Source of the DNA: Bacteroidales bacterium
Lineage (GTDB): Bacteria; Bacteroidota; Bacteroidia; Bacteroidales; UBA932
Assembly: GCA_022647615.1 (NCBI GenBank)
Contig: JALCKZ010000001.1
Location: 2,158,178 to 2,222,177, forward strand
Length of the DNA: 64,000 bases
Direction: 5' to 3'
Under the pieces are notes generated by a model. The model had not been told where the DNA came from. It worked only from the letters and a program-made list of their open reading frames with translations, and did no database searches. A program made the translations under genes and the position numbers. This document shows, in pieces, positions 5,359 to 62,309 of the stretch. The first letter of the stretch is position 1. Each line of letters starts with the position of its first letter.

Positions 5359-6207
5359 ATGAAATCATTTATGAAAAAGATATTTTTAATATTAATGGCA
5401 GTTGCGGCAGGTGCATTTTTCACCTCATGCAAAAGTATAGACGGGACGGTTTACAAGCCGACAGATGTAAGCGCATCTTTCCCATCTTCCGTTATTCAAA
5501 TTAATATGCTCCCTGCGGACGGCAACAAATTCCAGGTTCCGCTGTGGAGAGGAAATAAGAACGGCGCGGCATCAGTTCCGGTCACGATAGATGACCCGTC
5601 GGGAGCTTTCACCCCATCATCAACTTCTTTTGATTTTGCTGATGGAGAGTCAGTTGCATACATCACATTCTCTTATGCAGACCTGAATAATTTTACTGGA
5701 GCGGCAAATGATATCACAATCACTCTAAAAAATGATTCTGATGTTTCCGTTTCCGGCATATCTTCTACTCAGGTACAGGCCAAGAGAAAGCTGACTATGA
5801 AGCTGATAGGCAATGGCACATATCACAGCGACTGGCCGGAAGAAGATTGGTCTCAACCCGTTTATGAAGCGGAAGAGGCTCATTACTATGAACTTCCTGA
5901 CTGCTTCTATAATGACGGATATTCTGCGGCAAAGGGCTACACAATTTGCTTCTCAATAAGCAAGGGCAAAGTAATTTGGCCTGACGAGCAAAACACCGGA
6001 GTTTACAGCAGCGGAAGAACCAGCAAAATGTATTTGACTGTAGGCAGTGTAAAACTTACAGGACGCGTAGTTGAAGCTACCGTAGATTACCACTTCCCTG
6101 GTGCTGCAAACACAGCCAAGAGATGGTATGAAGGCGGAAGCGCAGCTGATCCTGCATATCCGGAAAGATTCACTTTCCCAGACAGTTATACAATGCCAAC
6201 AGATTAA
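5359..6207 (+). CDS. PUL lipoprotein in SusE/F position, function unknown
   Basis: 282 aa. Lipoprotein signal with lipobox FTSC near residues 21-24. The mature part is beta-rich: residues about 30-145 look like a Calx-beta-type or Ig-like module (SFDFADGESVAYITFSYADL), followed by a domain rich in aromatic residues. It is the third gene of the susC-susD operon and lies just upstream of a strong hairpin terminator. Genes in this position in other PULs usually encode surface glycan-binding proteins, so a carbohydrate-binding role is plausible, but no specific family is recognised. Confidence 0.8.
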   Translation: MKSFMKKIFLILMAVAAGAFFTSCKSIDGTVYKPTDVSASFPSSVIQINMLPADGNKFQVPLWRGNKNGAASVPVTIDDPSGAFTPSSTSFDFADGESVAYITFSYADLNNFTGAANDITITLKNDSDVSVSGISSTQVQAKRKLTMKLIGNGTYHSDWPEEDWSQPVYEAEEAHYYELPDCFYNDGYSAAKGYTICFSISKGKVIWPDEQNTGVYSSGRTSKMYLTVGSVKLTGRVVEATVDYHFPGAANTAKRWYEGGSAADPAYPERFTFPDSYTMPTD

Positions 6208-8210: not shown

Positions 8211-8218
8211 CAAAAGTA
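8211..8218 (-). promoter_or_regulatory. Putative -7 promoter box of the GH20 gene
   Basis: Minus-strand TACTTTTG matches the Bacteroidota -7 consensus TAnnTTTG, 29 bp from the GH20 ATG. Where a -33 element would be expected, the 20-bp repeat array begins. Confidence 0.5.
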
Positions 8219-8332
8219 CGTCGTAATAACCAATAATACGCCGTAATAACCAATAATACGCTGTTATATCCAATATCACGTCGTCATATCCAATATTACG
8301 CTGTCATATCCGGTAATACGGCGTTACAGCAT
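8218..8332. repeat. 20-bp tandem repeat array A (five units plus a partial)
   Basis: Five consecutive 20-bp units start at 8218, 8238, 8258, 8278 and 8298, with a degenerate sixth. Consensus ACGNNGTNATANCCAATANN. Each unit has an ACG-N-CGT-like core. It lies in the 301-bp gap between the divergent GH20 and DUF4434 genes. Four related arrays occur at 26551, 28013, 29044 and 33513; there are no spacers, so it is not a CRISPR. Confidence 0.9.
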
Positions 8333-17337: not shown

Positions 17338-19050
17338 ATGAAACAGATGAAAAAATTTATGATGATAATGCTGGCGTTTGCAGGAATTTTTGCAAGCTGC
17401 CAGAGTCCTCAGGATTTCACACCAACAACTGAATCTCTTGGACTTACAAGCGTTTCAGCTATGTTCAATTCTGGAACATATAAGGGAAATTCCGCAGCAA
17501 CATTTACCGCCACGGTTTCTGACCTTACTCAAGATATTGTAATTAAAATACCTTATTATTACCCGGAAGAGAGCAATAATCAGGTTACTGATATTACTAG
17601 CATGAAGGTCTATGCAACAATGGATTACAACTGCTTTATAGAGCCAAAGCTTGGCATCTTGGACCTAACCCAGCCAAACTATTTCACCTATACGGACGGC
17701 CGCGGAGAGCAGCATAAAATCTGCATCAGGGGTGAAATTGTTAAACTGTCGGGAAACAAAATACAAGCTTTCTCTGTCACAAACCCTTCACTTACAGGAA
17801 TTGTTGACAACACAGCTAATACAGTTACCTTCCCTGTCGGCGCAGGTGTTGATGTGAGCGCAGTTACACCTTCCATCACTCTTGACCCTCACGCAACCTC
17901 TAATTATGACGGAGTTGCAACGATGAACTTCTATAAGGACACGCTTGTAACTGTTACCGCTCAGAACGGAGATAAGAGAGAATATAAGATTGTTCTTAAA
18001 CAGCCGGAGAAAACTTCTTACGGATTCCGCTCAGGCTCAGAGACTTTATTGTGGAGCAAACAAGCCTCTGCAATTGGCTCGCCTTACGAGGTTTTGAACA
18101 ATGTATCATTGGCTGTATGCGACGGTTATGTTGTAGTAAACAGCAGCAACGGCACAACGCCGGTTTATCTGGACCTTGCAAATGGCTCAGCCAAAGGGAG
18201 TATCAACCTTGGCTCTGCTGACGCATCGGGTTGCGTAAAGAATGATGATGCAGGCAATATGATAATCTGCAACTATTCTGCTACTGAGTTTAAGATTTGG
18301 AGAACTAACAGCGTTAAAACAGCACCTACATTATTGCTTTCTTATACTATTCCCGACGGATTCCCTCTTGGATACAAAGTACGCGTTCACGGAGATTTGG
18401 ACGGAAACGCTTTGATAGTTGCAACTGTAGAAGGCATTGACGGAGTGAGTGTTAGCAATGATATTGTTTACTGGACAATAACTAACGGAACTGTTGGTGC
18501 ACCGGTTAGAGCAACCACTTCCAACATTGGAGCAACTCCGGGCTGGGGAGCAGGTCCCGGCAACAACGCAGATGTCTCTCCTCTTTCAAACAACATTGCC
18601 AACGGTTTAATGGCTTCATGCTATGACAGCGGATATGATAATCTGTACTTTGTTAACGGAACTTCATTTGCGGGAAGCGTAATGCTTGGCCCTCAAAGCG
18701 ACGGAACAGGCTGGGGATACAACAACAATTCAATCGGCACAGTTACCTTTAACAAAGCCGTTTATGCAGCATTGCTTTGCACTTCTCACTTCCCTCAATG
18801 GGGTATGGCTCAGTTGCTTTACATGTATGATGCAAGCAATCCAAGCTCATTTGCAGGAACTGTAGATGCAACAACACCAATGGCTTACAAACCAACATTA
18901 ACTTCATACTACTCAACCGGAGATGGAGTTGGAGCTTGCGGAGATGTTGTACTTTATTCAACACTAGATGGTTACATGATGTATATGGTTTACATCGAGC
19001 ATAACAATGATGCCATCGAATGCTTCAAATTTGACTGTATTAAGCAGTAG
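17338..19050 (+). CDS. DUF5018-type PUL lipoprotein
   Basis: 570 aa from ATG 17338, which follows GGAGG by 9 bp; an in-frame ATG at 17323 overlaps the SusD stop and is less likely. Lipobox FASC. Residues about 25-230 contain two beta-sandwich repeats of the DUF5018 kind (IQAFSVTNPSLTGIVDNTAN, then VTVTAQNGDKREYKIVLKQ). The C-terminal half looks like a propeller-like fold with aromatic-rich surface loops (DUF4623-like). Such genes sit third in SusCD operons and are thought to bind or present glycan at the surface. No enzyme motif seen. A terminator follows at 19069. Confidence 0.8.
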   Translation: MKQMKKFMMIMLAFAGIFASCQSPQDFTPTTESLGLTSVSAMFNSGTYKGNSAATFTATVSDLTQDIVIKIPYYYPEESNNQVTDITSMKVYATMDYNCFIEPKLGILDLTQPNYFTYTDGRGEQHKICIRGEIVKLSGNKIQAFSVTNPSLTGIVDNTANTVTFPVGAGVDVSAVTPSITLDPHATSNYDGVATMNFYKDTLVTVTAQNGDKREYKIVLKQPEKTSYGFRSGSETLLWSKQASAIGSPYEVLNNVSLAVCDGYVVVNSSNGTTPVYLDLANGSAKGSINLGSADASGCVKNDDAGNMIICNYSATEFKIWRTNSVKTAPTLLLSYTIPDGFPLGYKVRVHGDLDGNALIVATVEGIDGVSVSNDIVYWTITNGTVGAPVRATTSNIGATPGWGAGPGNNADVSPLSNNIANGLMASCYDSGYDNLYFVNGTSFAGSVMLGPQSDGTGWGYNNNSIGTVTFNKAVYAALLCTSHFPQWGMAQLLYMYDASNPSSFAGTVDATTPMAYKPTLTSYYSTGDGVGACGDVVLYSTLDGYMMYMVYIEHNNDAIECFKFDCIKQ

Positions 19051-26550: not shown

Positions 26551-26640
26551 ACGCCGTAATAACCAATATAACGTTGTCATATCCGATATGACGTTGTAAT
26601 ATCCAATATAACGTCGTCATAACCAATATGACGGCGTGCA
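26551..26640. repeat. 20-bp tandem repeat array B (four units plus a partial)
   Basis: Units start at 26551, 26571, 26591 and 26611 with a truncated fifth. Consensus as in array A and in the same orientation. It lies between the divergent phosphodiester glycosidase and ROK genes, in the probable 5' leader of the former. Confidence 0.9.
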
Positions 26641-26781: not shown

Positions 26782-27987
26782 ATGACAGAAACTTTTTTAC
26801 GCCAGGCTGAAGAGGGAAATAAAAATGCCCTTTTGAAGCGGCAGATTATTGGTCTTTACATCACCGGCGGGGACTTCAGCATTACTGATTTAAGCAAGGA
26901 GCTTAACTTATCCGTCCCTACGACCACCAAACTTATTGGAGAGCTTATAAATGAGGGCTTTGTGCATGACTATGGCAAGCAAGGCCGCAGCGGCGGAAGG
27001 CGCCCAAATATTTACGGACTTAACCCGTACGCCGGCTATTTTGTCGGAGTTGACATTACTCAAGACTCTGTAAACCTGGGTATTATAAACTTCAAGGGGC
27101 AGATGGTATTTTATAAAGGTGCCGTTCATTTTAAAATTGATAACACTATTCAGTCTCTCGACAGACTTTGTACTGTTGTAAAGAACTTTATATCAGAGAG
27201 TAAGATTGTCAAGAAAAAAATACTTTCAATAGGTGTGAATCTGTCGGGACGCGTAAACTCAGAAACCGGCTACTGCTACAACTACTATTTTGAAGAGCGT
27301 CCGCTATCTGTTTTGCTGGAGGAGAGAATGGGATATCCCGTTCATCTAGAGAATGATACGCGTGCCATGACTTATGGCGAATATATGTGCGGAGTCGCAA
27401 GTAACGAGAAGACAATGCTTTTCATCAACGCCAGCTGGGGCCTTGGAGTCGGCATCATAATAGACGGCAAGCTATATTACGGAAAATCAGGCTTTTCCGG
27501 AGAGTTCGGACACTTCCCTATGTTAGACAATGACGTTCTTTGTCGCTGCGGAAAATCCGGCTGCCTGGAGACCGGCGCATCCGGCTCAGCGCTGCACAGA
27601 CTATTTCTTGAAGCCTTAAAGCAAAAGAAAATATCCTTATTATCAGATAAATACGCCAAAGGAGAAGACATCTCACAAGAAGACATACTGCGCGCCCTGA
27701 GGCATGAGGATATACTCGCGATAGAAATCATGGAGCAAATTGGAAATACACTTGGCCGTGCGGTTGCAGGACTAATCAATTTGTTCAACCCTGAACTAAT
27801 AGTCGTCGGCGGAACACTCTCAGTAGCAAAAGATTATCTAATGCTGCCGCTAAAAAGCGCCATCAACAAATACTCCCTGTCCCTGGTCAACAAAGACACC
27901 ACAATCAAAACCAGCAAGCTCGGCGACAAAGCCGGCGTCACAGGCGCCTGTTTCCTGGTCCGCAGCAAAACCCTGGGGTTACTTTAA
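26782..27987 (+). CDS. ROK-family (NagC-like) transcriptional regulator
   Basis: 401 aa. N-terminal winged helix-turn-helix (about 14-75: LLKRQIIGLYITGGDFSITD, then ELNLSVPTTTKLIGEL) followed by a ROK sugar-binding domain with GVDITQDSVNLGII, HLENDTRA (about 188-195), SGEFGHFP (239-246), the zinc-binding CRCGKSGC (254-261) and GLINLFNPELIVVGG. ROK regulators of this build respond to an amino sugar or its phosphate. Position beside the NAGPA and GHL10 genes suggests it controls the amino-sugar locus; targets are not proven. Repeat arrays flank both ends of the gene. Confidence 0.88.
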   Translation: MTETFLRQAEEGNKNALLKRQIIGLYITGGDFSITDLSKELNLSVPTTTKLIGELINEGFVHDYGKQGRSGGRRPNIYGLNPYAGYFVGVDITQDSVNLGIINFKGQMVFYKGAVHFKIDNTIQSLDRLCTVVKNFISESKIVKKKILSIGVNLSGRVNSETGYCYNYYFEERPLSVLLEERMGYPVHLENDTRAMTYGEYMCGVASNEKTMLFINASWGLGVGIIIDGKLYYGKSGFSGEFGHFPMLDNDVLCRCGKSGCLETGASGSALHRLFLEALKQKKISLLSDKYAKGEDISQEDILRALRHEDILAIEIMEQIGNTLGRAVAGLINLFNPELIVVGGTLSVAKDYLMLPLKSAINKYSLSLVNKDTTIKTSKLGDKAGVTGACFLVRSKTLGLL

Positions 27988-28012
27988 TCTTACGCCTAAT
28001 TACCGTGTAATA

Positions 28013-28103
28013 CAACGTAATATTGGTTAGTACGCTGTACTGTACTATTGAGTAATTCAGCGTAATATTGGTTATTACGCCGTACTATTCAGTAATACAG
28101 CGT
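28013..28103. repeat. 20-bp repeat array C (inverted orientation, abuts RAYT 3' end)
   Basis: Units 28019-28038, 28044-28063, 28064-28083 and 28084-28103, with one 5-bp interruption, read AATATTGGTTATTACGCCGT, the reverse of arrays A, B and D. The last unit ends exactly at the stop codon of the transposase gene. Confidence 0.85.
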
Positions 28104-28912
28104 CATTTTAGTATCCTTTTTATTCTTTCTTGGCTGTCATGGAGCAGACTAGCTATTTGCCGAATTGAGCCAGTTGTGGTGGTTCTTAGGTATTTTATTA
28201 GGTCGTCTGCTTCTGCCGGTTTTAGCATGTTTAGGTTTTGCTTTGAGTATTGTTTTGATATGTAGCATATTGCATTTGACAGTAGCTCTTTGTCGTCAAT
28301 ACGCTTGGATGAAAATATGTCTTCTGATTTTTCCTTTGGCGCATCTTTTTGTGATGTAACAACGTATCTCATAAAATCATCAAAATCCTCATAGCGCCTG
28401 TCGCAAATTGTTGTGTCAACGGTAATTATATCGGACAGCCTTTGAGGGGCAGGCAAACTGTCGGGAGACTCATCACATTTTCCAAAGTGCATCTTAGCTG
28501 AACTCCAAAAATAATCCTGTGGTTTTGCGCAAATCCCGGCCTCCACCGGATTGTTTAGAATATAAGCACATTTTGAAATCATATGATTTTCAGAGAATTG
28601 TACTGTACTTAAAAAAGGAGTTCCAAATAGCTTTTCCGATAAATTGTACTTGCGATTATGCCATCGGCTGTACTCACGCAAAAATACCGTCATCATCTTA
28701 GTGAGACAGTCTGTTTGCAACATAAGATGGCAATGGTTTGACATGATGCAAAACTCATAAAGCGTTGAGCTAAATTTATCAAGTTCACGTTGCAAATATC
28801 TAAGCATCATTATCTTATCATCATCATCGTAAAAAACTGTAAACTTTGCATTCCCTCGAAATGCGACATGCATCACTCCCTCTTGAAGTCGCGGCTCTCT
28901 TTTCCCCTTCAT
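28103..28912 (-). CDS. REP-associated tyrosine transposase (RAYT, Y1/IS200-like)
   Basis: 269 aa. Y1-transposase fold: HVAFRGN (15-21) replaces the usual HVxNRGN, the HUH metal-binding motif is IMSNHCHLML (His60, His62), and a candidate catalytic Tyr lies in LREYSRWHNRKY (Tyr81). CAYILNNPVEAGIC matches the YIxxNPVxAG signature of RAYTs. Such enzymes nick single-stranded DNA at REP hairpins and are tied to their spread. The C-terminal about 100 aa may bind DNA. The gene is flanked on both sides by 20-bp repeat arrays in inverted orientation (28013-28103 and 29044-29135). It looks intact. Confidence 0.88.
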   Translation of the reverse strand: MKGKREPRLQEGVMHVAFRGNAKFTVFYDDDDKIMMLRYLQRELDKFSSTLYEFCIMSNHCHLMLQTDCLTKMMTVFLREYSRWHNRKYNLSEKLFGTPFLSTVQFSENHMISKCAYILNNPVEAGICAKPQDYFWSSAKMHFGKCDESPDSLPAPQRLSDIITVDTTICDRRYEDFDDFMRYVVTSQKDAPKEKSEDIFSSKRIDDKELLSNAICYISKQYSKQNLNMLKPAEADDLIKYLRTTTTGSIRQIASLLHDSQERIKRILK

Positions 28913-29043
28913 AATTCTTTAAATAAAATTTTAGCAATAATATTATGCAAATAACTAAAATGCAAGCAATTATATCTATCATCCGCAAATATTTACAATT
29001 CCGGATTTTTTAAGAAGTAAAATTGTATCTCAATCCTTTTTGC

Positions 29044-29135
29044 ACGCCGTGTTAACGGTTATTACGTCGTAATAAACGATAGTACGGCGTATTAACCAGT
29101 AATATGGCGTAATAACTGGTATTACGGCGTTAAAG
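29044..29135. repeat. 20-bp repeat array D (upstream side of RAYT)
   Basis: Units start at 29044, 29064, 29084, 29104 with a partial at 29124, in the opposite orientation to array C. More diverged than arrays A and B, but the ACGNNGT core and 20-bp period hold. It ends 1 bp before the MBOAT stop codon. Confidence 0.85.
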
Positions 29136-29136
29136 A

Positions 29137-30699
29137 TTAAAATTGGAAGTAAATGAACGGCTGGATCTGGCTGCTCTTGGTTTGGATTACTATGTAGATG
29201 ATGATTATCATTACAAGGGCTTTGAACCATAGAGGTGTGGCGGTGAAACGCTCCTGAAGTTTGTTGGTGATGCGGTCCGGCACGTAATGTAATGCATAAC
29301 CTAATACTATCAGTGCCAGGACTTTCCAGTAGCCAACGATGAGCTGCGGCAGGATTGAGGCGTGGAATGAAGTAAAGATTTGACTCAAAACATCGCTGGC
29401 AGTGCTAAGGTCATGCGCGCGGAAGAAAATCCAGCAGAAGCATACAAAGTTGAATGTCAGGAAGATATTGATGAACCGTCTGAAGCGGTTTACCGGTTTC
29501 ACCTTTCTGTCGTGACCTTTATCAACATTTTTATCGTGACCTGTAATACTTCTCCACACTTTATTTGCTGCAAGCGCTACCCCGTGCATGCTGCCCCACA
29601 AAATAAAATTCCAAGATGCGCCGTGCCATAAGCCGCATAAGAACATGGTTGCCAGAAGGTTAAAGTATTGCCTTATTTTTCCTTTTCTGTTGCCGCCAAG
29701 AGAAATGTAAACGTAATCTCGCATCCAGGTTGACAAAGAGATGTGCCAGCGATGCCAGAAGTCGGTGACAGACACAGATTTATAAGGATTATTGAAGTTT
29801 ATGTTGAAATGGAATCCAAGCAACAGGGCAATACCAATCGCCATGTCTGAATAACCTGAAAAATCGCAGTAAATTTGCAGCGCGTAGCCGTATGTTGCAA
29901 GCAAGTTTTCAAGGCCGGAAAACAGTGTAGGTGAGTCAAATACGCGGTCCACAAAGTTGATGCTTATGTAGTCTGAAATGACAGCTTTTTTGAAAAGTCC
30001 GCCAGCAATCAGAAACAATGCAACACCAATCATTTTATCAGTAACAACCAGATTTTTACGTATTTGCGGGATAAAATCCTTCGCCCTCACGATAGGTCCT
30101 GCAACTAGTTGCGGGAAGAATGAGACATAAAATGCATAGTCCAAAAGGTTGTGCAGCGGCTTAATCTCGCCTCTGTAAATATCTATGGTATAGCTCAATG
30201 ACTGGAATGTAAAGAATGAAATCCCGACAGGTAGGAATATGTCTTTTGGCTGAAAATTGCCGCCAATCAGATTAGAAAAAATCTCTCCAAAAAAGTTTGT
30301 GTACTTAAAATATGTAAGCAATCCCAAATTTATGCAGATGCTGAGCGTGACCAAAAGCGTCTTACAAGTATGTATGTGTTTGTCTGACAACTTTTTGCCA
30401 GCCTTAATACTACCTGTCGCGAACTTAAACTTCTGCTCAATTTGTTCCATTGCATAGCCGATGCAAAAGTCTGAAGTTGTGACTAATGCAAGAAGCCAGA
30501 AATAAAGGCCGCTGGATTTGTAATAGAAATAGTAAGAGAACAACACCACAAACAGCAGACGGCCAGTCTGTTGCTTGCGCAGCAAATAATATATAATGAT
30601 GAAAGCCGCAAACAGCCACAGGAATAGCCCGCTGCTAAAAATCATCGGAGCCTGTGCGTTGTACGTCAGCACATCTTTCAACTTTGATATATCTATCAT
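29137..30699 (-). CDS. MBOAT-family O-acyltransferase
   Basis: 520 aa, about 11 membrane helices. The MBOAT core is clear: DFSGYSDMAIGIALLLGF, DFWHRWHISLSTWMRDYVYI (about 313-332), and GLWHGASWNFILWG, where His359 is the expected catalytic residue. This is the AlgI/PatA/DltB group that moves acyl groups across the inner membrane onto extracytoplasmic polysaccharide. Start overlaps the stop of the SGNH gene upstream by 4 bp, so the three genes (33475 down to 29137) are translationally coupled. The acceptor polymer is not evident. Confidence 0.93.
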   Translation of the reverse strand: MIDISKLKDVLTYNAQAPMIFSSGLFLWLFAAFIIIYYLLRKQQTGRLLFVVLFSYYFYYKSSGLYFWLLALVTTSDFCIGYAMEQIEQKFKFATGSIKAGKKLSDKHIHTCKTLLVTLSICINLGLLTYFKYTNFFGEIFSNLIGGNFQPKDIFLPVGISFFTFQSLSYTIDIYRGEIKPLHNLLDYAFYVSFFPQLVAGPIVRAKDFIPQIRKNLVVTDKMIGVALFLIAGGLFKKAVISDYISINFVDRVFDSPTLFSGLENLLATYGYALQIYCDFSGYSDMAIGIALLLGFHFNINFNNPYKSVSVTDFWHRWHISLSTWMRDYVYISLGGNRKGKIRQYFNLLATMFLCGLWHGASWNFILWGSMHGVALAANKVWRSITGHDKNVDKGHDRKVKPVNRFRRFINIFLTFNFVCFCWIFFRAHDLSTASDVLSQIFTSFHASILPQLIVGYWKVLALIVLGYALHYVPDRITNKLQERFTATPLWFKALVMIIIIYIVIQTKSSQIQPFIYFQF

Positions 30700-33512: not shown

Positions 33513-33592
33513 GACGCCGTCATACTAGTTATTACGACGTATTACCAGTTAATACGACGTAATATTGGTTAATACGTCGTGCTTTTGGTTGT
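33513..33592. repeat. 20-bp repeat array E (four units)
   Basis: Units start at 33513, 33533, 33553 and 33573. Same orientation as A, B and D. It fills most of the gap between the SGNH start (33475) and the stop of the phytase-like gene (33599). Confidence 0.85.
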
Positions 33593-37661: not shown

Positions 37662-37786
37662 ACTACAACTTCATTTTCACATTAACTTCACCACAACTTC
37701 ATTCTCACATTAACTTCACCACAACTTCATTCTCACATTAACTTCACCACAACTCCATACTCACATTAACTTCACCACAACTTCAC
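37662..37786. repeat. 28-bp minisatellite between ribD and ribE
   Basis: About four and a half tandem copies of a 28-bp unit containing CACAACTTCATTCTCAC and ATTAACTTCAC, nearly identical. It fills almost all of the 143-bp gap inside the rib operon and lacks any reading frame signal. Confidence 0.9.
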
Positions 37787-38971: not shown

Positions 38972-39122
38972 TCTAATCTTCTACCATCCGGACTTTACCG
39001 TCGGTATCGGAATTTCACCGATTCAGTCCCCTTAAAACCAGCACGTTGCATAACAACCGCCCTAAGAGGAGTCGCGGACTTTAACCGCCGGTAGGGAATC
39101 ACACCCTGCCCCGAAGACTACT
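38972..39122 (-). promoter_or_regulatory. FMN riboswitch (RFN element)
   Basis: On the minus strand the RFN signature is complete: GGGGCAGGGTGTGATTCCC, then ACCGGCGGTTAAAGTCCGCG, a variable stem, GATTCGGTG-like ACTGAATCGGTGAAATTCCG, and ACCGACGGTAAAGTCCGGATG with GAAGAT. These are the conserved FMN-binding segments. It lies between a TACCTTTG promoter box and the ribD terminator hairpin, so FMN binding should favour the hairpin and lower expression of all four rib genes. Confidence 0.97.
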
Positions 39123-59348: not shown

Positions 59349-59748
59349 TTTTATCCCGACAGTCAATCCTCCCCCGTTCTAGAGGCATACGCCAAACCCG
59401 CCCATAATTGGCGGCTTTGTGCGTGCATGTGCACTTGCCAGGAACTCGAGGCAAGTGCACATGAATAATAATAGTTCGTCGGAAGAACCGCAGAGCAACC
59501 TCTGGCCAGCAGCGCACTTAAAATCAAAAATCAGGTTGTTGTACAACTATGCAAAAAACATTAGGAAACAGCACATTGCAGAACATGCTAGGCAAAAGAA
59601 CCCGCAAGAAAGGCCATGCTAGATTTTGCAAAACTCACAGGCAATCAGGCATATACAAAAAGACATCCAACGCACAAGCAACACTGAGCGACGTTTTGCA
59701 ACCACCTGACAATCAGTTAGTTTTTCAAAGTTCTGACACAACAGGTCG
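59349..59748 (+). repeat. Structured repeat element, copy 1 (possible RNA)
   Basis: It begins with TTTTATCCCGACAG and shares long blocks with copy 2 (61851). A perfect 14-bp stem at 59426-59439 and 59450-59463 (arm CATGTGCACTTGCC, 10-nt loop) is its centre. Smaller hairpins: CCGCC/GGCGG and CAGAG/CTCTG. Short frames in both directions are conserved only where the DNA is and are not credible genes. Confidence 0.8.
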
Positions 59749-61850: not shown

Positions 61851-62309
61851 TTTTATCCCGACAGCCCAATCCTCCCCGTTCTAGAGGCATACGCCAAACC
61901 CGCCTCAGGTCGGCGGCTTTGTGCGTGCATGTGCGCTTGCCAGGAACTCGAGGCAAGTGCACATGAATAATAATAGCTCGTCGGAAGAGCCGCAGAGCAA
62001 CCTCTGGCCAGCAGCGCAAGCAAAATCTGTAATCAAGTTCTATCACACAACAAACACCAGCTTCCTCACATGGAATCAGGAATCGCAAAATCAAGTTGTG
62101 CCACAACTTTGCAAAAAGCATTGGAAAACAGCGTATTGCAGAACACCGCTAGTCAAAAGAACCTGCAAGAAAGGTCAGGCTGGATTTTGCAAAACTCGCA
62201 GGCAATCAGGCATATACAAAAAGACACCCAGCGCATAAGCAATGCTGAGCGACATTTTGCAACCGCCTGACAATCAGTTAGTTTTTCAAAGTTCTGCCAC
62301 AACAGGCCA
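61851..62309 (+). repeat. Structured repeat element, copy 2 (possible RNA)
   Basis: Same order of blocks as copy 1 plus an insertion of about 55 bp (near 62041-62100). The central stem 61928-61941 / 61952-61965 differs from copy 1 by one A-to-G change that keeps pairing as G-U only on the plus-strand RNA. It also carries the mini-repeat core in inverse orientation (62164-62180). Confidence 0.8.

Follow-up and report, generated by a model that had tools for sequence, protein, structure and literature searches.

The window, a stretch of 64,000 nucleotides, contains a gene for a RAYT-like Y1/HUH transposase that is bracketed by two arrays of a short repeat with the core ACGNCGT, array C between the ends of the RAYT gene and a ROK-family gene, and array D between the RAYT start and an MBOAT gene (Table 1). 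The last core of array C (28097–28103) overlaps the outermost base of the RAYT stop codon, while array D begins with a core at 29044, 131 bp upstream of the RAYT start, and ends 6 bp from the MBOAT stop codon. On the ROK side, array C starts about 24 bp past the stop codon, or about 2 bp if a degenerate start that may extend back to 27990 is counted, and one core spacing of 45 bp interrupts its 20-bp register. This layout, a Y1/RAYT gene flanked by two 20-bp ACGNCGT arrays of which one reaches the stop codon and the other stops short of the start, had been described in the first-pass annotation and is borne out by a clean ORF and by 18 two-core matches in the window (3 mismatches allowed) against 0.00 in shuffled sequences.

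Table 1. Genes and repeat arrays of the window discussed in the text (window coordinates).
Feature	Position	Strand	Basis or remark
RAYT-like Y1/HUH transposase, 269 aa	28103..28912	-	clean ORF; Pfam Y1_Tnp
Array C, ACGNCGT cores between ROK gene end and RAYT gene end	28012..28103	+	core pattern, unit scoring
Array D, five cores, 20-bp period	29044..29130	-	core pattern, unit scoring
Array of the same 20-bp family, five cores, between NAGPA-domain gene and ROK gene	26551..26637	-	
Array of the same 20-bp family, four cores	33514..33580	.	18 bp from stop codon
Array of the same 20-bp family, six cores	8218..8324	-	
MBOAT gene	29137..30699	-	syntenic neighbour of the RAYT also in G001 (91% aa identity)
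ROK-family gene, other side of array C	26782..27987	+	not a RAYT neighbour in G001

The predicted protein matches Pfam Y1_Tnp (E = 5.1e-8) and has intact catalytic residues, including the HUH histidines H60/H62 and a single catalytic tyrosine, Tyr117, in a Y---NP motif (YILNNP), all of which are invariant among relatives in the protein alignments (A1, A3). Its AlphaFold model (pLDDT 78.6) has the TnpA-REP fold, with the top match over all PDB chains being 4er8 (E 2.3e-6, TMt 0.63), a REP-associated tyrosine transposase with a bound REP hairpin; a PDB search with the sequence itself returned spurious matches only. The C-terminal part (about residues 140–269) is all-helical and found no match in a Pfam search. 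Against NCBIfam NF047646 (REP-associated tyrosine transposase) the protein scores 38.6 bits (E 8.9e-10), below the curated cut-off of 80, and judged by this score it is a relative of that family rather than a curated member. The genome analysed here (G000, hereafter own genome) contains about nine Y1 genes, one of which has arrays within 300 bp on both sides. An IS200/IS605 insertion sequence would move as a unit and leave several near-identical copies, whereas the RAYT gene is single copy both here and in the sister species (G001), where its locus is kept.

The repeat unit is 20 bp long and consists of ACGNCGT followed by NN, TA, five bases (often YYGGW or its complement), TA and NN. Core and spacer are each quasi-palindromic, so that two adjacent cores bound a hairpin-capable 27-mer. 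Of the initial description as tandem direct repeats, the 20-bp period and the ACGNCGT core stand, but the units are not plain direct repeats. The opposite orientation proposed for arrays C and D agrees with leave-one-out unit scoring (+13.4 and -13.1 bits, respectively), with the reserve that one unit gives most of the score of array D and that its flank motifs point the opposite way. Orientation by flank motifs alone (TTTTGC / CATTTT) was dropped, since it conflicts with the unit scores for some arrays.

The genome was read in stretches around arrays and Y1 genes, and the consensus was mapped genome-wide against the RAYT genes, as the first-pass annotation had proposed. The two-core pattern occurs at 53 places (3 for the reversed pattern), which group into about 17 arrays, all intergenic save for short overlaps with predicted ORF ends; a stop codon lies within 18 bp of the array start in about 12 of the 17. 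Chaining is the norm, with the longest chains reaching six cores. Spacers differ at 3.9 of 13 positions within an array and at 4.8 between arrays (permutation P < 0.0005), and this greater likeness within arrays fits local growth. Covariation of the unit hairpin is weak in the own genome, where 8–20 is the one variable pair that covaries (P 0.007), with no covariation between the central N positions of the two cores, and many arrays may thus be products that are no longer good substrates. The arrays also do not have the form of a REPIN, in which two inverted REPs fold into one hairpin: their chained units share cores, and no inverted pair with a spacer was found among the 20-bp arrays of this genome. 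No shared function was found among the array-neighbouring genes, and a regulon reading was set aside because these genes are unrelated. An Rfam search returned no family for the arrays or for the REPINs described below, and its only match in the window is an FMN riboswitch (38972–39122, minus strand, RF00050, 113 bits). A 28-bp tandem repeat (4.3 copies, 95% matches) lies between two genes at 37665–37785.

When array positions were rotated around the genome with their clustering kept, bracketing of some Y1 gene by arrays within 300 bp on each side had a probability of P = 0.0009. The RAYT is a gene flanked by a genome-dispersed repeat, and the own genome alone makes the link between the two suggestive. 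G001 is a fragmented MAG, and its RAYT was pieced together from two contigs that overlap by 127 bp. The gene is intact (259 aa, 61% identity) and adjoins the same MBOAT gene. Its repeat is a 26-bp palindrome, ACGCCGTCTTTAATTAAAGACGGCGT, found on both sides of the gene with one base differing on one side, about 20 bp after the stop codon and about 100 bp before the start; on the side away from MBOAT, a separate ordinary terminator precedes the palindrome. Short chains with a 19-bp period and cores shared between units are present as well, and an earlier reading of the repeat as species-private was dropped once alignment of the RAYT–MBOAT gap with G001 exposed this 19-bp type. Synteny with G001 breaks at array C (window 6207 / 28012): the downstream neighbour of the RAYT there is the gene at window 5359–6207, which about 22 kb separates from the RAYT in the own genome. 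Two blocks of BspA-type LRR genes with arrays between them are absent from the matching G001 contig (G000:C1:923.8k-936.7k, L027), and an array lies about 50 bp from the end of one of them.

Elements of type A (20-bp) or type B (19-bp) were found in two of the 39 genomes of the genus, exactly the two with a RAYT orthologue, and as both are sisters this co-occurrence counts as one event. The strict 20-bp pattern is confined to the own genome in a search of 118 relatives, and the exact three-core pattern had no match in GTDB r220 contigs and viral contigs, so no phage or wider carrier was seen. The core itself reaches further. An ACGNCGT element lies within about 150 bp upstream of all six RAYTs of two related clades (those of the own genome, G001 and the congeners G006, G007, G009 and G025), and the own genome, G001, G006 and G007 have one downstream too; array D thus fills the slot that a palindrome or REPIN occupies in the relatives. 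The RAYTs of the four congeners are 35–40% identical to the own RAYT. Half-sites of long ACGNCGT pairs number 38 in G006, 49 in G007, 51 in G009 and 25 in G025 (reversed-pattern controls 0–5) and are at background in the remaining congeners, except for 10 in G023, where REPINs are present and a matching RAYT was not found. The first-pass annotation had taken the repeat as the partner of the RAYT and had named arrays in RAYT-less genomes as a test. The search leaves this link standing, since types A and B occur only with the RAYT and long REPINs are abundant in congeners with related RAYTs, G023 being the one addition; it is the relatives, rather than proximity, that make the case. A RAYT paralogue at 859k of the own genome groups with the RAYT in the tree, and no ACGNCGT-type palindrome was found beside it.

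In the four congeners, the element is an inverted pair ending in ACGNCGTCTTTNTGTACAA, with copies sitting just upstream of the RAYT, as in the example TTACGTTGTCTTTTTGTACAA..TTGTACAAAAAGACAACGTAA (102 bp start to start); G006 and G007 have an inverted pair downstream of the RAYT as well. An alignment of 32 copies from these genomes (A2) yields a 121-bp REPIN of four helices, in which a 19-pair outer stem encloses a central hairpin and two small ones at its sides; 80.3% of cells are paired. Double-sided compensatory cells number 203, compared with 97 in shuffled and 75–117 in slid controls; as the structure was itself derived from these copies, the slid control is biased towards it, but the excess is large. 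The outer stem is conserved and bears the tag, while the inner hairpins vary freely yet stay paired. The congeners' element is a multi-copy pair of inverted REPs in one hairpin. Its inner sequence varies among copies with the length nearly fixed, and its central hairpin is often terminator-like with a T run.

Orthologous sites of the two sisters were compared at array D and at positions 1838689, 939872, 18106, 1447499 and 990726. At D and 1838689, the own genome has the 20-bp type and G001 the 19-bp type. Both sisters have the 20-bp type at 18106, degenerate in G001, and the 19-bp type at 1447499 and 990726. At 939872, the G001 contig ends within a 19-bp-type unit; at this site of the own genome, 20-bp units apparently adjoin, at a core, a degenerate remnant of the 19-bp type. 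In both sisters, the RAYT is flanked by the repeat type that is live in that genome. The synonymous divergence (pS) of the RAYT from G001 is 0.79, compared with 0.53–0.62 for four neighbours, whose amino acid identity is 74–92%. In this one sister pair, the higher divergence of the RAYT sequence is compatible with either rapid co-evolution or an exchange of the segment that holds the RAYT. A possible, if rather doubtful, extension is that RAYT and REP turned over together, the RAYT having been replaced or having diverged fast at a fixed locus (its synonymous sites are saturated) and the elements at orthologous sites that were occupied beforehand having been rewritten between spacer types, with junctions at ACGNCGT cores as exchange points where the RAYT or recombination would swap or add units.

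A second partnership is visible in the own genome. The RAYT at 965k has a different tag, GTTGTGSCACAAC, on both sides of the gene and at 29 half-sites in the genome, which makes one repeat per RAYT the pattern here. Its REP is GTTGTGSCACAAC-TTTGCAAAA, and at some places (445769/445778, 580577/580586) a single core serves two REPs. Copies of the 965k-type REPIN family (GTTGTGSCACAACTTTGCAAAA tag) lie in the window at 59535–59742 and 62095–62303. A long tandem repeat lies within 200 bp upstream of three of the five other RAYT genes, with units of 24, 35 and 83 bp (L033:5071-5273, L034:5508-5700, L037:4400-5042), and of 8 of 137 genes elsewhere; the units of the 83-bp array contain the palindromic TTTTCCGGAAAA.

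Because the RAYTs of the sister and the congeners have ACGNCGT elements, the repeats are taken as the REP/REPIN partner of this RAYT lineage. We consider it probable, at roughly 0.7, that the locus is a REPtron, in which a resident single-copy RAYT has its partner repeat on both sides and dispersed intergenically, the 20-bp arrays being a collapsed and tandemly multiplied form of REP/REPIN. In the congeners with related RAYTs, the partner is a REPIN, an inverted pair of REPs that each end in the palindromic ACGNCGT and that enclose three small hairpins. Loss of the inside of the inverted pair would leave a 26-bp palindrome (a ‘double foot’ REP), as in G001, and in the own genome such palindromes would have expanded into tandem arrays. 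ACGNCGT is itself a palindrome, and the two ends of an element are thus both direct and inverted repeats, so that adjacent units can share a core; slippage or recombination at the shared core may then add units with a 20-bp period. We infer the direction from REPIN through palindrome to array, array growth by slippage and a role of the RAYT in this growth. The RAYT most likely would bind single-stranded hairpins bounded by the core, nick and rejoin them, and have dispersed the elements in this way; other RAYTs nick and rejoin single-stranded GTAG REPs (PMC8266576). The first-pass annotation had suggested that the arrays would be a different type of substrate, direct repeats in place of imperfect palindromes. 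A fundamentally different, non-palindromic substrate is not supported in this form, since the arrays have their core in common with palindromic REPs, from which a derivation is the simplest account of them.

The arrays could instead serve mainly as transcription terminators or 3′-end RNA hairpins (C for ROK and D for MBOAT), with the RAYT between them by accident. The closeness of array starts to stop codons suits such a role, as do the T runs that follow several arrays on one strand (CATTTTTTT), the better folding of many arrays than of shuffles on both strands, and the G001 palindrome with T7 beside MBOAT, which resembles an intrinsic terminator. We nevertheless regard an accidental placement as unlikely, because one core family flanks six RAYTs in two clades, copy number follows the presence of the RAYT among congeners, the rotation test gives bracketing so low a chance, and the palindrome on the other side of the G001 RAYT has an ordinary terminator in front of it. 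REPs are commonly located after genes (PMC3733652) and the terminator and REP readings are not exclusive; a terminator role at gene ends, partly supported by these observations, is compatible with a REPtron.

With a unit of about two helical turns, a palindromic core and most unit pairs lacking compensatory change in the own genome, the arrays might be iteron-like double-stranded sites for a DNA-binding protein, either the RAYT itself through its helical C-terminal domain or some unrelated regulator, and function in control rather than mobility. This is quite improbable given that the neighbour genes have no common function, that the element of the relatives is a covarying hairpin structure and not an iteron array, and that the C-terminal part lacks a Pfam match. 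The proposal of the first-pass annotation that the gene and both arrays are mobilised with their ends, that is, as one transposable cassette moving as a block, is not supported and is very improbable: each genome has one copy of the gene, which in the sister keeps its position beside the same MBOAT gene, most arrays lie far from any Y1 gene, and REPtrons reportedly do not move as one unit (PMC6006769). The excess pS of the RAYT together with the different repeat types flanking it does point to a possible exchange of the whole segment in one piece.

As a probable REPtron, the locus resembles the RAYT (TnpA-REP) systems with REPINs of Pseudomonas fluorescens SBW25 and E. coli in its single-copy Y1/HUH gene flanked by a dispersed intergenic repeat, in the inverted REP pairs of the relatives and in having several RAYTs per genome that differ in their repeats. 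Clusters of tandem REPs or REPINs have been described too, some of them beside RAYTs (PMC3116915). In contrast to those systems, the RAYT-flanking elements of this lineage lack a GTAG/GTGG tag at the hairpin foot; a palindromic tag, ACGNCGT, lies within the stem, units measure just 20 bp and share their core with the next, and the REPIN of the relatives has three covarying inner hairpins. With both the NCBIfam cut-off and the GTAG tag missed, the system is classed as a variant of REPtron/REPIN. 

Subclass 2.6 of TnpA-Y1 comprises Bacteroidetes with ‘atypical’ REP structures (PMC6006769), and the locus is like it in its Bacteroidetes host, the absence of a GT[AG]G motif and atypical flanking structures copied elsewhere in the genome. 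The RAYT is longer (269 aa), its HUH motif is NHCH and YILNNP departs from the subclass motif YIH[QN]NP; it appears close to subclass 2.6 without being placed in it. For double-foot REPs (subclass 2.4), an origin from an inverted REP pair that lost its centre has been proposed (PMC6006769), and the 26-bp palindrome of G001 looks like such a collapse, although its foot is ACGNCGT instead of GT[AG]G and the form is multiplied in tandem in the own genome. TIRYTs (PMC3733652) and subclass 2.1, which has a C-terminal helix-turn-helix (PMC6006769), likewise combine a Y1 gene with inverted repeats on both sides and a C-terminal helical extension, but the repeat consensus here is not GGGGWSAS and the C-terminal part of the RAYT has no HTH match. 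CGTC-tagged REPs have an unpaired CGTC at one end, a stem of 8–9 bp and a loop of 4–5, and were described as families without a known transposase (PMC3733652), whereas CGTC in the ACGNCGT elements occurs only within the paired ACGNCGTC end.

Work on how RAYTs recognise and spread REPs, and on how the two stay matched over time, has mostly used proteobacterial REPs with a GTAG tag. The genus studied here provides a series with one tag and related RAYTs, from covarying REPINs through collapsed palindromes to tandem arrays, and its RAYT–repeat pairs are small and cheap for in vitro testing. The two sisters, which differ in repeat type at shared sites, offer a rare view of a RAYT–repeat partnership changing, and the series suggests a rule by which a REP with a palindromic tag can expand into tandem arrays.
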